Below are positions 18,065-59,103 of a stretch of DNA of 64,000 bases, piece by piece. The position numbers were made by a program, and so were the translations under genes. Source of the DNA: Brachybacterium alimentarium (lineage in GTDB: Bacteria; Actinomycetota; Actinomycetes; Actinomycetales; Dermabacteraceae); assembly GCF_002332425.1 (NCBI RefSeq), contig NZ_NRGS01000017.1:62001-126000 (forward strand), written 5' to 3'. Every line of letters begins with the position of its first letter. Position 1 is the stretch's first letter. Under the pieces are notes generated by a model that searched no databases, was not told where the DNA came from, and was given only the letters and a program-made list of their open reading frames with translations.

Positions 18065-20623
18065 ATGCCTCTCCTGACGCCGTTCCTGCCCGAGCACACC
18101 TCACACACCGCTCAGGACACGATCGTCGACGGATTCATCGAGTCCCAGGAGGCCGTGGGGCGCGAGCTGTATCCGCACCAGGAGGAAGCGCTGCTGGCGA
18201 TCGCGGCGGGCGACCATGTGATCGCCGCGACGCCCACCGGATCGGGCAAGACCACGATCGCGTTCTCCGCGATCTTCGCCGCGATGGCCCGCGGGGAGCG
18301 CTCCTACTACACCGCCCCCATCAAGGCGCTGGTCAGTGAGAAGTTCTTCGATCTGGTGAGCCAGTTCGGCGCGGAGAACGTGGGCATGATGACGGGCGAT
18401 TCGTCGGTGAACCACGACGCCCCGATCATCGTGTGCACGGCGGAGATCTTCGCGAACCATGCCCTGCGCGAAGGCGCCGGGAGCGACGTGCGCCTCGCGG
18501 TGATGGACGAGTTCCACTACTACGGGGACTCCCAGCGCGGCTGGGCCTGGCAGGTGCCGCTGGTGGAGCTTCCGGACTGCCAGTTCGTGCTCATGAGTGC
18601 GACGCTCGGCGATGTCACCACCTTCGCTGACGATCTCGAGGAGCGCACCGATCGTGACGTGACGGTCATCGACGACGCCCCCCGGCCGGTGCCCCTGGAC
18701 TTCCGCTGGTCGCTCGAACCGCTGCCGGACACCATCTCGACGATCCTGCAGGACCGCGACGCCCCGGTCTACATCGTCCACTTCACCCAGAAGGATGCGC
18801 TGGAGCAGGCACAGGCCCTACTCGGCCAGAAGATCCTCTCGGGCGAGGAGAAGGAGCGGATCCGCGAGATCATCGGCGACTTCCGCTTCTCCAAGGGCTT
18901 CGGGCAGATCCTCTCCAAGCTCGTGCGCGAGGGCATCGGCGTGCACCACGCCGGCATGCTGCCGAAGTACCGCCGACTGGTCGAGAAACTCGCGCAGTCC
19001 GGCCTGCTGAAGATCATCTGCGGCACCGACACGCTCGGCGTGGGCATCAACGTGCCGATCCGCACCGTGCTGCTGACGGGGCTGGCGAAGTTCGACGGGA
19101 AGCGCACACGCCTGCTCAACGCCCGGGAGTTCCACCAGATCGCCGGCCGGGCGGGCCGTGCGGGGTACGACACCGTGGGCCACGTGGTCGTCCAGGCGCC
19201 GTCGTGGACCATCGACTTCGAGCGGGAGCTGGCCAAGCAGCGCGCCCGGGAGGAGTCCGGGAAGACCTCCAACAATGCGAAGAAGCGCAAGAAGGAGCCC
19301 AAGCCGCGCATCCCCGATGGCGCAGTGTCGTGGTCCGAGGCGAACATGACCAAGCTGGTCGAGAACGCCCCGGAGCCGCTGCGTCCGCATCTGAAGATCA
19401 CGGCAGGCATGGTCCTCGCGCTGATCTCGCGTCCCGGCGACGCCATCGCCTCAGGACGGCACCTGATCATGACCAGCCACCAGACCCGCACCCAGAAGCT
19501 CAAGCTGGTCAAGGACGCGGTGGAGATCTTCCGCGGCCTGCAGGACGCCGAGATCATCGAGGTGCTCGAACAGCCGGATCATCTGGGCCGACGGATCGCG
19601 CTGGTCGAGGACCTGCAGCTGGACTTCACGATGAACCAGCCGCTGGCCCCCTTCGCCATCGCGATGATCGACACCCTCGACGAGGAGTCCGAGAGCCTCA
19701 CGATGGACACCGTCTCGATCATCGAGGCGATCCTCGAGGACCCCCGGCAGATCCTGCTGGCCCAGCAGAACGCCGCCAAGGGCGAGCTGCTCGCCGAGCT
19801 CAAGGCCGACGGCGTCGAGTACACCGAGCGCATGGCGCAGTTGGACGAGGTCACGTGGCCCAAGCCCCTCGAGGAGGATCTCGAGGCGGCGCTGGAGATC
19901 TATGCGAAGAACCGTCCGTGGGTGCGCGTCGAGGACCTCTCCCCCAAGTCCGTGGTGCGCGAGATCCACCAGACCGGCCAGACGTTCAGCGAGTTCGTGC
20001 AGCGCTACGGGCTGCAGCGCTCCGAGGGCATCGTGCTGCGCTACCTCTCCGACGCGTACCAGGCGATGCGTCGCACCATCCCGCAGGAGCTGCGCACCGA
20101 GGACCTCGACGACCTCATCGAATGGCTCGGTGTGCTGGTGCGCGGCATCGACTCCTCGCTGCTGGACGAATGGGAGGCGCTCTCGCACCCGGAGGAGGCC
20201 GAGGGTGATGCCGCCAGCGACCTGCGGCCCACCTCTCCGCGCGGGCTCTCCGCCCAGACCAAGGTGCTGCGCACGATGATCCGGGCCGCCATGTGGCAGC
20301 GCGTCGAGCATTTCGCCTTCGAGCGTGAGGCACGGCTGGCCGAGCTCGACGGCGCCTCCGGCTGGGATCGTGCCCGGTGGGCCGAGGCGATGGACGAGTA
20401 CTACGACACCTATGACGACGTCGGCATCGACGGCCCGGCGCGCTCGCCGCAGCTGCTGCAGATCACCGAGGAATCCAAGCTCTGGCGCATCCGCCAGGTG
20501 CTCTCGGATCCTGACGGCAACCACGACTGGGCGATCGAGGCCGAGCTGGATCTCGAGGCCACCGATGAGGCCGGCGAGCCCGTCCTGGCGATCACCCACG
20601 TGGGGGACATCGCGGACCGGTGA
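18065..20623 (+). CDS. DEAD/DEAH-box helicase with DUF3516 (Ski2/Mtr4-like)
   Basis: An 852-residue superfamily 2 helicase. Walker A is TPTGSGKT (residues 56-63); the Walker B box is DEFH (148-151); a helicase C domain carries HHAGMLPKYRRLVEKLAQ and FHQIAGRAGRAG (motifs V and VI) near residues 300-365. The remainder is the C-terminal DUF3516 region typical of actinobacterial proteins annotated as RNA helicases. A basic stretch KKRKKEPKPR near 405 sits between the two. By family it probably unwinds RNA, but substrate is unproven. The ATG at 18065 is chosen because the open frame upstream is non-coding in character. Followed by repeats and a terminator. Confidence 0.9.
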   Translation: MPLLTPFLPEHTSHTAQDTIVDGFIESQEAVGRELYPHQEEALLAIAAGDHVIAATPTGSGKTTIAFSAIFAAMARGERSYYTAPIKALVSEKFFDLVSQFGAENVGMMTGDSSVNHDAPIIVCTAEIFANHALREGAGSDVRLAVMDEFHYYGDSQRGWAWQVPLVELPDCQFVLMSATLGDVTTFADDLEERTDRDVTVIDDAPRPVPLDFRWSLEPLPDTISTILQDRDAPVYIVHFTQKDALEQAQALLGQKILSGEEKERIREIIGDFRFSKGFGQILSKLVREGIGVHHAGMLPKYRRLVEKLAQSGLLKIICGTDTLGVGINVPIRTVLLTGLAKFDGKRTRLLNAREFHQIAGRAGRAGYDTVGHVVVQAPSWTIDFERELAKQRAREESGKTSNNAKKRKKEPKPRIPDGAVSWSEANMTKLVENAPEPLRPHLKITAGMVLALISRPGDAIASGRHLIMTSHQTRTQKLKLVKDAVEIFRGLQDAEIIEVLEQPDHLGRRIALVEDLQLDFTMNQPLAPFAIAMIDTLDEESESLTMDTVSIIEAILEDPRQILLAQQNAAKGELLAELKADGVEYTERMAQLDEVTWPKPLEEDLEAALEIYAKNRPWVRVEDLSPKSVVREIHQTGQTFSEFVQRYGLQRSEGIVLRYLSDAYQAMRRTIPQELRTEDLDDLIEWLGVLVRGIDSSLLDEWEALSHPEEAEGDAASDLRPTSPRGLSAQTKVLRTMIRAAMWQRVEHFAFEREARLAELDGASGWDRARWAEAMDEYYDTYDDVGIDGPARSPQLLQITEESKLWRIRQVLSDPDGNHDWAIEAELDLEATDEAGEPVLAITHVGDIADR

Positions 20624-20703: not shown

Positions 20704-20779
20704 CGTTGACCACGACGCGGGTCGTTGGACAGCACGCGGGGCGTTGGACAGCACGCGGGGCGTTGGACAGCACGAGGCC
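20704..20779. repeat. Four 19-nt tandem units
   Basis: Units of CGTTGGACAGCACGCGGGG begin at 20704, 20723, 20742 and 20761. The two middle units are identical, the first and last are degenerate. The last unit runs into the terminator hairpin. No spacers, so this is not a CRISPR array. Confidence 0.85.
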
Positions 20780-20807
20780 GGCGCCCCCGAGAGGGGACGC
20801 CGGCCTC
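20774..20807. terminator. Bidirectional terminator between helicase and peptide genes
   Basis: GAGGCCGGCG (20774-20783) pairs with CGCCGGCCTC (20798-20807), and CCCC/GGGG continue the stem after one mismatch to close a GAGA loop. It serves the helicase on the plus strand and the peptide gene on the minus strand. Confidence 0.8.
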
Positions 20808-20837
20808 GGTCATCGTGGGGAAGCGGTCAGTGCCCGA

Positions 20838-21056
20838 TCACCAGGGATTGACCTCGATGCTCTTCCAGGGGTTCACCTCGATGTGCTTCCAAGGATTCAC
20901 CTCGACCTGCGGGTTGACCTCCACGGCAGAGGCGAGACCGGCGCCGCCCATCGTCAGCGCAGCGGCGAGCGCCGCACCGCCGGCCAGACGGGCTCCTAGG
21001 CGCAGCCTGGCCCTGCGGGGAGTACGGGGGAACTGCGCTTCTCTCGTCAGACTCAT
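20838..21056 (-). CDS. Small secreted VEVNPW-repeat peptide
   Basis: A 72-residue precursor I do not recognise. Residues 1-22 are basic (TPRRARLRLGAR), residues 23-44 form a hydrophobic export signal ending in the cleavage-type site ASA, and nearly all of the predicted mature chain (28 residues) is a repeat: VEVNPQ, VEVNPWKH, IEVNPWKS, IEVNPW. There is no cysteine. The start at 21056 has AAAGGTG upstream; a longer frame to 21311 crosses a terminator and is not credible. It lies 211 bases downstream of a secreted protease gene on the same strand whose export signal is similar (GGLAFAAALSLGGAGLATA against GGAALAAALTMGGAGLASA). The ordered signal and repeat argue that it is real. Function unknown; a secreted peptide ligand, antimicrobial or protease substrate are all possible. 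Confidence 0.7.
   Translation of the reverse strand: MSLTREAQFPRTPRRARLRLGARLAGGAALAAALTMGGAGLASAVEVNPQVEVNPWKHIEVNPWKSIEVNPW
20841..20924 (-). repeat. 24-nt repeat coding VEVNPWKx
   Basis: Residues 45-72 of the peptide precursor: units of 18, 24, 24 and 18 bases with the core (V/I)EVNP(W/Q). The DNA copies share CAGGGGTTCACCTCGATG-like sequence on the plus strand but have diverged at silent sites, suggesting that the protein motif is under selection. Confidence 0.85.
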
Positions 21057-21216
21057 GATCCGCACCTTTCGCGTACCGGGACCGGATCCCAGCACTATGT
21101 GCTCCGAAGAGTACTGACAGTTGTCCACATCACACAAGGGCGATCCGCGGATGCGCTCATCAGCGCGGCGTGCTGCGGACGCCTGCGGTGAGCGGCAGCG
21201 GCAGCGGACGAGCGGA

Positions 21217-21267: not shown

Positions 21268-22281
21268 TCAGGCCGCAGCGGCCTCGTCGTAGACCTGCTG
21301 GGCGACGTCACCGAGGTACGGGCCGTACATGACGTTCGGCTGCGAGTTGTAGCCGAAGCTGTTCACGGAGATCTGGTAGCCGGAGGGGCCGTCGCCCACG
21401 AACCAGGGGCCACCGGAGGAGCCACCGGTCATGTCGCAGTCGATGCCCTGGTCATCGGATCCGCCGAGGGTGTCATCGGAGCCGGTGTCCTGGCACTGCT
21501 CGAGGCTCTCGCCGTCGAACGGGCTGGCGGCCGGGTAGCCGAAGGACGTGTAGAGCGCACCGCGCTCGGTGTTGAACTCGATCCCGGAGGCGCCGACGGT
21601 GTCCGCGAGCGAGGCGCTGCCGCTCTCGGGCTCGACGACCGCGAAGGCGACGTCGTAGTCGAGATCCTCGGAGCTGATCCACTGCTCGGTCGAGAACAGG
21701 TCCGAGGCGCTCCACAGGCCGTACGGGGTCTCGCCCTGGTCGTAGCCGGGAGCGAACACCCAGTTGCTGGCCCAGGCGCCTGCCTCGTTCGTGCAGTGCC
21801 CCGCGGTCGAGACGGTCGAGCCGTTGTCGGAGGCGACGGAGTTGCCCGAGCACACGTAGTCGGTGCCGTTCACGGTGAAGAAGACCTTGCCGATGTGGTC
21901 GGTGTCTGCCGCGGCGGCGGGCTGGGCCTCGGCGCTGCGGGCGGTCTCGGCCTGCGGGGAGGCCTCGGCGGCCGGGATCCGTGCGGTCTCGGAGCTCTCG
22001 ACCTGACCGTCCGGGGCATCGGCCTCGTCGACGAGGTCGTCGGCAGGGGTGGCGGCCTGCATGCGCTCCTCGGTCCAGTACCCCACGGCCGCATCCTGCT
22101 CAGCAGTCGAGAGGGTCGTGGTCTCCAGAGCGCTGTCGCCGGTCGGATCGGCGGTGGCGAGCCCGGCCCCTCCCAGGCTCAGGGCGGCGGCGAAGGCGAG
22201 TCCCCCTGCCGTCCTGATGCCACGGCGAAAGCGTGCCGGGCGGTGTCTGCTGTCGTCCTGATCATCCGGGGAGAAACTCAT
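21268..22281 (-). CDS. Secreted trypsin-like serine protease
   Basis: A 337-residue exported protease. Residues 1-45 hold a basic region (RFRRGIRTAGG) and a hydrophobic export signal ending ATA; a poorly conserved pro-region follows to about residue 125. The chymotrypsin fold then shows the triad: His in TAGHC, Asp in the DYDVAFAVV strand, and Ser in TGGSSGGPW. Paired cysteines flank the His and Ser sites. Such proteins resemble the glutamyl-endopeptidase and streptogrisin-like secreted enzymes of actinobacteria. The gene is alone in front of the repeat-peptide gene, with a palindrome at 22383-22398 about 100 bases upstream. Substrate unknown. Confidence 0.88.
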   Translation of the reverse strand: MSFSPDDQDDSRHRPARFRRGIRTAGGLAFAAALSLGGAGLATADPTGDSALETTTLSTAEQDAAVGYWTEERMQAATPADDLVDEADAPDGQVESSETARIPAAEASPQAETARSAEAQPAAAADTDHIGKVFFTVNGTDYVCSGNSVASDNGSTVSTAGHCTNEAGAWASNWVFAPGYDQGETPYGLWSASDLFSTEQWISSEDLDYDVAFAVVEPESGSASLADTVGASGIEFNTERGALYTSFGYPAASPFDGESLEQCQDTGSDDTLGGSDDQGIDCDMTGGSSGGPWFVGDGPSGYQISVNSFGYNSQPNVMYGPYLGDVAQQVYDEAAAA

Positions 22282-57852: not shown

Positions 57853-59103
57853 TCAGCCCAGGAGCGCGCCGACGGCCCGAGCCTTCTCCAGCGTGTCCGG
57901 CAGGGCGCGCAGCAGGAGGTCGACGTCGTGGTCGGTGCTGGTCCAGCCCAGGGAAAGGCGCAGTGCGCCCCGGGCGGTGGCGTCGTCGATGCCCATCGCG
58001 GCCAGCACGGGGCTGGCCTGGGTGACGCCGGCGGAGCAGGCGGAGCCGGCCGACGCGTCGATCCCGCGCTCATCGAGCAGGAACAGCAGGGAGTCGGAGT
58101 GCGCGCCGGGGAACACGACGTGCACGATGTGCGCCGAGCGCGGGGTGTCCTCGGCGAGGGTGAATCGGGCCGTGGGGTCGATCTCGTGGATCCCGCGACG
58201 CAGCCGCTCGGCGAGGGCGCGCAGCCGTCTGATCTCCTGGTCGCGATCGGACAGGGTCTCGCGCAGCGCGGCGGCGAAGGCTGCGGCGAGGGCGAGGTCC
58301 AGCGTTCCCGAGCGCACTTCGCGCTGCTGACCGCCGCCCGTGCTCACGGGCCCGAAGGGCACGTCGGGCTTGGCGACCAGTGCCCCGACCCCCACGGGGG
58401 CTCCGATCTTGTGCCCGGACAGCGTCATGAGGTCCACGTCGTCCCACGACCAGAAGGGGAACGCCCCAGCGGAGCCGTGCCCCAGGGCAGCACCGTGCCC
58501 CAGGTCAGCACCGTGTCCCAGGGCGGCACCGTGTCCCAGGGCCTGGACCGCATCGGTGTGCACGATGGTGCCGTGGGGACGGGCCTGCGCAGCCAGGGCC
58601 GCCGGATCCTGCATCGCGCCGGTCTCGTTGTTGACCAGGGCTGCGCTGAGCAGCCCTACGGCACCGTCGGCCAGGGCGGCCTCGACGCCCTCGGACCGCA
58701 GCATCCCCTGGCCATCGACCGGCAGCATCCGGGCCTCGAGAGCGGGTGCGAGCGACCGCGCCGTGGCGACCACGGCCGGGTGATCGGTGGCCGCCACCGC
58801 GACGGCGGTGCGGGAGGGATCCGCGGCGAGGATCCCGGTGGCCGCGCCGCGGATCGCGAGGTTGTCCGCCTCGGTCCCTCCGGATGTCATGATCAGCCAG
58901 CTGCGAGGCACTCCGAGCTGCTCGGAGATCGACTCCAGGGCGTCGTCGAGCACGGCTCGGGCGCGGCGTCCCGTGGCATGGGTCGAGGACGGGTTGCCCG
59001 GAGTCGCCGAGGCCTCGAGAAGGGCTTCCCGGGCCGCGGGACGCAGCAGGGTGGTCGCCGCATGGTCGAGATAGGCGCGCTCGGCGCCGACGTTGTTCAC
59101 CAT
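57853..59103 (-). CDS. Cysteine desulfurase (IscS/NifS class V aminotransferase)
   Basis: A 416-residue PLP enzyme that takes sulfur from cysteine for Fe-S clusters and tRNA thiolation. YLDHAATT opens the fold, SGGTEADNLAI and HTDAVQALG are present, the PLP lysine is in LSGHKIGAP, and the active Cys in SAGSACSAG. An insert of four GHG repeats (58463-58540) lies right after HTDAVQAL, next to the active site. It comes between the VWA operon (7 base overlap with the next gene) and mnmA, matching the iscS-mnmA order of mycobacteria. Confidence 0.93.
   Translation of the reverse strand: MVNNVGAERAYLDHAATTLLRPAAREALLEASATPGNPSSTHATGRRARAVLDDALESISEQLGVPRSWLIMTSGGTEADNLAIRGAATGILAADPSRTAVAVAATDHPAVVATARSLAPALEARMLPVDGQGMLRSEGVEAALADGAVGLLSAALVNNETGAMQDPAALAAQARPHGTIVHTDAVQALGHGAALGHGADLGHGAALGHGSAGAFPFWSWDDVDLMTLSGHKIGAPVGVGALVAKPDVPFGPVSTGGGQQREVRSGTLDLALAAAFAAALRETLSDRDQEIRRLRALAERLRRGIHEIDPTARFTLAEDTPRSAHIVHVVFPGAHSDSLLFLLDERGIDASAGSACSAGVTQASPVLAAMGIDDATARGALRLSLGWTSTDHDVDLLLRALPDTLEKARAVGALLG
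58463..58540. repeat. 18-nt tandem repeat in the cysteine desulfurase gene
   Basis: Units of GCCCCAGGGCAGCACCGT at 58479, 58497 and 58515, with degenerate copies on both sides, encode LGHGAA/LGHGAD blocks. Confidence 0.9.

Follow-up and report, generated by a model that had tools for sequence, protein, structure and literature searches.

Some genomes of Brachybacterium encode a family of small proteins in which an export-type signal, as read from the sequence, is followed at once by 3–13 copies of one hexapeptide, and codon comparisons indicate that these arrays are under purifying selection. The member described here lies in a window of 64,000 nucleotides from Brachybacterium alimentarium, by which we mean the whole stretch of DNA analyzed, and all window positions are counted from its first letter. 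These proteins are tentatively interpreted as precursors of a Sec-exported, multi-copy short linear ligand, a reading whose chances we would put somewhat below even. A preliminary description of the window had proposed an unrecognised secreted peptide made of selected hexapeptide units; the observation itself is confirmed by the present analysis and its interpretation is supported, translation and secretion being predicted from the gene's features.

The locus comprises the following features.
18116..20623, plus strand: helicase-like neighbor gene, convergent with the peptide gene (name and start read from the sequence)
20773..20808, unstranded: 16-bp hairpin between the convergent peptide and helicase genes, without a T run (found by folding, z -4.1 for the stretch folded)
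20838..21056, minus strand (complement): tandem-hexapeptide precursor coding sequence of 72 codons (72 aa), ATG to TGA, with the TGA stop at 20840..20838
20841..20858, minus strand: unit 4, IEVNPW, preceded by KS (20864..20859), its final residue being the C terminus
20865..20882, minus strand: unit 3, IEVNPW, preceded by KH (20888..20883)
20889..20906, minus strand: unit 2, VEVNPW
20907..20924, minus strand: unit 1, VEVNPQ, adjoining the AxA motif
20925..21056, minus strand: predicted signal peptide of 44 codons with an ASA end, assigned by eye
21063..21069, minus strand: Shine-Dalgarno-like AAAGGTG, 6 nt 5' of the ATG
21268..22281, minus strand: serine protease neighbor with a signal-like N terminus, a frequent but not obligatory neighbor

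The open reading frame translates as MSLTREAQFPRTPRRARLRLGARLAGGAALAAALTMGGAGLASA followed by VEVNPQ VEVNPW KH IEVNPW KS IEVNPW and the stop. The export signal ending in ASA that had been reported is recovered as a 44-residue predicted signal with the first unit directly after it, and the (V/I)EVNP(W/Q) units said to make up most of the mature chain cover 24 of its 28 residues. Tryptophans occupy mature positions 12, 20 and 28, so that the spacing of eight noted earlier holds in the window; it does not extend to the family, where W-ending units occur in 4 of 19 species (G000, G013, G026 and G027), the remainder ending mainly in Q, or in L in G025. Cysteine is absent from the window's mature chain, as had been stated, and from all 19 mature chains of the family. 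None of 100000 shuffles of the mature chain repeated a 4-mer as often as observed (four times), and a chance repeat was rejected on that count. Summed over the six pairs of window units there are 15 synonymous changes per 21.5 synonymous sites and 11 nonsynonymous changes per 86.5 nonsynonymous sites; none of the other 18 genes reaches the resulting pN/pS of 0.18, which makes this the least uniform array. The 16-bp hairpin is probably a terminator shared by the peptide and helicase genes; a consensus scan for promoters and terminators returned no call, the hairpin included. Elsewhere in the window, at 58471..58542 on the minus strand, there are four near-copies of ALGHGA, all four different at the DNA level, in a protein (57853..59103) which we take from its sequence to be cysteine-desulfurase-like.

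Homologues consisting of a signal peptide and tandem units were identified in 19 of 38 Brachybacterium genomes, counting that of the window, which answers the proposal that repeat-bearing homologues be sought in close relatives. In all 19 (18 loci plus the window) the peptide gene adjoins and converges with the same helicase-like gene, which is present in 37 of the 38 genomes; the exception, G029, is 74% complete and its peptide status is not judgeable. Eighteen genomes carry the helicase and no detected peptide, and model searches of the genes beyond the helicase, listed for 17 of these, revealed no arrays. Mapped onto a 37-row helicase tree, the distribution of the peptide is explained by three changes, whereas each of 500 shuffles called for more, so that one gain and two losses provide a simple history. 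No arrays were found in nine genomes from other genera of the family, eight of which gave no match whilst G044 gave two weak matches (2.2e-4 and 5.1e-4) mainly to the signal-peptide part of the model. An order-level search of 396 genomes at E 1e-6 matched 13, twelve from the genus and one through a subtilase described below; at ranks above the family the searches covered samples of 394–396 genomes, and they would miss arrays with a different sequence. Tandem-unit matches in G532, G729, G054, G146 and G001 were judged by eye to be low-complexity or wrong-strand repeats, and one in G238 was dropped as a different protein. This G238 frame (L156, 530 aa from position 544), which by its sequence resembles a WYL-type transcriptional regulator, carries about ten EVETNP-like units in mid-protein and is another NP hexapeptide array.

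The earlier view that the peptide belongs to no recognised family was borne out, with no Pfam family matched and two NCBIfam matches far under cut-off (E 0.085 and 0.2). Searches also returned no PDB match for the peptide and no phage or plasmid match, in a search from which very near records were possibly left out; together with the fixed synteny, this led us to reject an origin in a phage or other mobile element.

The 19 mature chains are 28–85 residues long and contain 3–13 pattern-recognised units, 117 in total, with a consensus that is mostly (V/I)(E/Q)(V/I/T/A/G)NP(Q/W/L) and species-level words such as VEVNPW, VEVNPQ, VEINPQ, VQINPQ, IETNPL and IQGNPQ. Signal peptides, as read from the sequence, measure 41–44 aa in the 16 homologues with an assigned start codon, and in all 16 the chosen start is preceded by GAAAGGTG or a GAGAGGA-type site; a GTG start in G036 would make its signal 44 aa. 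One frame, that of G027, has no start codon near the signal peptide, so one of the 19 genes may have decayed or been misassembled. Each array was taken as the stretch between two stops, and a frame broken inside an array would appear merely as a shorter array. In 18 of the 19 genes the first unit is immediately preceded by an AxA motif; since this rule was used to place the site in 17, the junction is a description and not an independent prediction. In the remaining gene, from G036, the first unit begins seven residues past the aligned signal-end site. Fourteen chains end exactly on a unit (thirteen recognised plus a variant PEVNPQ in G007), whilst in the other five the final recognised unit stops 1, 1, 2, 8 and 8 residues short of the C terminus. 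The whole mature chain keeps a register of six in nine genes (L068, L071, L073–L076, L078, L081 and L084), all of which have the second hexamer exchanged for another word (KSTLRF, KPSVQF, VSSTKF, SASQRF, KAPAPH and others) with the register kept. A left-handed beta-helix or other solenoid, suggested by the period of six, was set aside as spacings of 7, 8, 10, 12 and 13 also occur.

Silent DNA differences with a conserved motif had been taken as a sign of selection on the peptide, and comparison of units supports this. Within genes, units differ with pN 0.021 and pS 0.389 (each gene weighted equally), and between genes with pN 0.163 and pS 0.442 (each pair weighted equally); none of 300 random reassignments of the 117 units to the 19 genes gave a pN under 0.137. 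The units were picked by pattern, which depresses pN both within and between genes. Orthologous arrays compared without picking units gave pN/pS values of 0.06, 0.11, 0.07, 0.17 and 0.10 in five comparisons. These drew on seven genes selected because their arrays agreed in length or register, and the third to fifth comparisons have genes in common and were restricted to 36 codons. The sister species G002 and G030 illustrate the pattern, every recognised unit being VQINPQ in the former and VEINPQ in the latter, with a within-gene unit pS (0.34 and 0.29, respectively) above the pS of the helicase between these species (0.216). G003 and G025 behave alike (0.41 and 0.43 vs 0.248 for the helicase); G036 and G028 show the opposite, with a helicase pS of 0.403 above within-gene values of 0.35 and 0.16.

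Since silent divergence within arrays is about that between genes, most copies are not recent duplicates. The G002 array contains four identical DNA units in a row, and position-specific silent patterns were not significant in any of the three pairs of species compared (the observed value was equalled or exceeded in 1088, 308 and 1565 of 5000 shuffles). Position-specific patterns were consequently dropped as proof of non-recombining units, and exchange between units may contribute, given this local tract duplication and the lack of a significant positional match. Low pN and high pS within genes, together with a word that varies between species, point to the hexapeptide as an interchangeable unit under selection, and the units would act as copies of one word with or without exchange between them. 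Near-identity within a species and difference between many species suggest that some partner reads the word itself.

Arrays with a similar signature were encountered in a second setting. The Brachybacterium peptide model matched a 521-aa S8 subtilase in which FIETNPF repeats precede the catalytic domain; its genome, G090, belongs to a different family of the same order. Idealised units, and after them the G090 subtilase, served as queries against the order and class and yielded further subtilases. Tandem 6- or 7-residue arrays were found in 20 of 24 judgeable subtilase frames from 29 loci (L148, L149, L150, L153, L155 and L174–L196), situated 31–46 residues before the catalytic motif. Five of the loci came from the array search and are biased in this respect; the other 24 came from the search with the subtilase, a query that itself contains an array, and of these 19 were judgeable and 15 carried one. 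The units include NPFIET, NPLIET, NPFIAT, NPFMKT, NPFTRT, NPFSRT, NPYGRT, NPYHSG, NPFHAS and HPYDSS, many following a grammar N-P-(F/Y/L)-x-x-x, as well as APFTRG, GHPITG, VGYGDG, VPFGSG and others. The unit varies between genera and often between species, with four same-genus pairs sharing one, and IETNPL is common to the exported array of G025 and the subtilase of G144. Pooled subtilase units have pS 0.50 and pN 0.048, a pN that the search rule of at most one mismatch per unit limits by construction. As in the subtilases, Brachybacterium units are nearly identical within a protein despite strong silent divergence. The subtilases are proteins of about 500–600 aa, and none of the seven N termini seen has an obvious signal peptide, whereas the Brachybacterium protein consists of a signal and an array, and in the 72-aa window protein no subtilase catalytic domain follows the units. 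Given the wide variation among subtilase units, common descent is no likelier than convergence on one grammar. The gene after the subtilase matches TPR_12 over cut-off in G090 and G137 and under cut-off in G636, the three tested, and a Sigma70_r2 protein is encoded upstream in G090. A subtilase homologue occurs in 1 of the 38 Brachybacterium genomes, matching the catalytic part alone; with the linker uncovered, a subtilase acting in trans as the partner in Brachybacterium was rejected. We found no name for hexapeptide arrays in S8 linkers.

In the ligand reading that we favor, the chain would be exported and stay disordered, each hexapeptide would be functionally interchangeable, and one cognate partner would read the hexapeptides; all copies would then have to change together whenever that partner changes. 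An extracellular partner may be a surface, a protease cleft or, once short peptides have been released, a receptor. The most likely version, which is less certain than the general scheme, is that extracellular proteases would cut the array into short peptides serving as a species-specific signal, like multi-copy Phr propeptides, the often-adjacent protease being one possible, not necessary, processing enzyme. Most weight is placed on a processed exported ligand because the array starts and mostly ends on unit borders and because multi-copy propeptides are known in Bacillota. Counting against a signal, no receptor-like neighbor gene was seen in 18 peptide genomes (the G030 contig stops at the peptide), many units abut without an evident cleavage site, and arrays of the same signature lie inside large subtilases, where pheromone release is not an obvious role; since subtilases carry arrays, structural and protease-decoy readings are the more to be kept in play.

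The first of these, which we consider unlikely, is a multivalent structural or adhesive polypeptide, an extended chain punctuated by proline that would act as matrix, coat or spacer, with recombination keeping the copies alike. The freely variable copy number and chain length agree with this, as do the similar arrays between domains in subtilases, and recombination between units is compatible with the data. AlphaFold runs on six sequences likewise gave repeats without a fold (mean pLDDT 54), a low-confidence result that is not evidence by itself. Recombination sits less easily with silent sites that are nearly as divergent within arrays as between genes; a spacer, moreover, needs no start or end on unit borders, and the chains as read contain no sortase motif or C-terminal membrane segment.

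Gene context bears on the second, in which the hexapeptide would be a substrate-like decoy or pseudo-substrate filling the cleft of a serine protease, the neighboring one or another, and so regulating or protecting it, with the subtilase arrays as the same device in cis. The neighboring protease is related to PDB 3wy8 (serine protease) and 3cp7 (alkaline serine protease AL20), with Pfam trypsin scores under cut-off, and its signal peptide resembles that of the peptide (52% over 42 aa). Its gene is the peptide's immediate upstream neighbor in 9 of the 19 genomes and lies past the helicase in 5. Of the 14 largest clusters of genes in the stretch of up to 7.5 kb past the helicase, only those of the peptide and the protease are confined to peptide genomes, the protease being on the helicase's peptide side in 9 genomes with the peptide vs none without (uncorrected for kinship); farther out are ACT/cimA/ilvE-like or nitrate-reductase-like genes, with names partly read from the sequence. 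The protease gene appears decayed or misassembled in two genomes, being split over frames in L078 (G027) and represented by its C-terminal part alone in L075 (G031). This clustering, the resemblance of the signal peptides and the position of subtilase arrays shortly before the catalytic motif speak for a decoy. Against it, protease homologues occur in 22 of the 38 genomes, 14 with the peptide and 8 without a detected one, whilst 5 genomes have the peptide alone and 11 neither (Fisher p 0.099, uncorrected for kinship, and one protease-only genome, G029, being incomplete). Co-occurrence is thus not obligate, leaving the protease unsupported as an obligate partner, and the Glu of the unit is replaced by Gln in two species, G002 and G036. 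On balance we regard a decoy role as unlikely.

We consider it improbable that the protein gives rise to a modified peptide (RiPP) or is antimicrobial. Identical repeated cores after a leader occur in some RiPPs, and four species have Trp-ending units; on the other side, no conserved maturation or modifying enzyme was recognised by eye beside the peptide among the 14 largest gene clusters, the leader resembles a Sec signal, and 18 of the 19 mature chains are negatively charged (two only slightly), with Trp missing from 12 and Cys from all. Least credible of all is the view that the gene is dispensable and its repeat selfish or neutral, for although the family is limited to one genus and missing from half its genomes, with labile array length and a G027 frame that lacks a start codon, the low pN/pS of all five orthologous-array comparisons and the retention of ribosome-binding site, start and export signal speak against it.

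A broader proposal, which we put forward as a long shot, is that Actinobacteria use a private hexapeptide array as an unnamed device, in which near-identical copies of one word would change in concert with one co-evolving partner. It would be deployed as a free exported species-specific signal in Brachybacterium and in cis in TPR-linked subtilases, there as a possible pseudo-substrate or docking tag. If true, the peptide would be a candidate actinobacterial peptide-signal system outside RRNPPA, with a multi-copy exported peptide and species-specific units. Scrambled silent sites beneath a near-constant word offer a simple genome-wide test for partner-read short peptides, and the subtilase linkers with the same pattern suggest a wider phenomenon.

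Literature searches gave no match for VEVNPW, VEVNPQ, VEINPQ or IETNPL; for further unit strings, ETNPL alone was counted among the matches listed, with titles on other subjects, and no paper was found combining hexapeptide repeats, subtilase, linker and actinobacteria. PMC7159879 deals with trypsin and S8 peptidases as parts of conflict systems, and the terms 'tandem repeat', 'peptide repeat' and 'short peptide' are absent from its main text.

The closest comparison is with the RRNPPA propeptides (Phr, AimP, PapR and NprX), which as outlined in PMC9765709 and PMC11343458 share with the Brachybacterium protein a small exported precursor with a short repeated peptide, identical copies per precursor and a unit that varies between lineages. 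Multi-copy Sec-exported propeptides of Bacillota are described there with up to six (PMC9765709) and up to eight copies (PMC11343458), and in Bacillales systems the propeptide gene lies directly downstream of a TPR receptor gene (PMC9765709). By sequence, the Brachybacterium peptide is likewise a small exported propeptide with at least one copy of a short peptide. Unlike RRNPPA systems, it is actinobacterial, has up to 13 copies, an array directly after the signal and an NP core in most units, and no TPR receptor gene lies immediately upstream at the peptide loci. RNPP_C was matched in none of the 38 genomes, with a weak control (1 of 14 matched, none over cut-off), and an RNPP_C receptor was dropped as the partner; TPR_12 was found in 7 of the 38, 4 of them peptide-bearing, and not in the window's own genome (control 13 of 14). 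On the receptor features tested, the peptide thus falls outside RRNPPA and is not shown to be a member of the Phr family. Fungal pheromone and KEP precursors also join a signal peptide to tandem copies of a short peptide; they have Kex2-type dibasic sites between the copies, whereas Brachybacterium units often abut directly.
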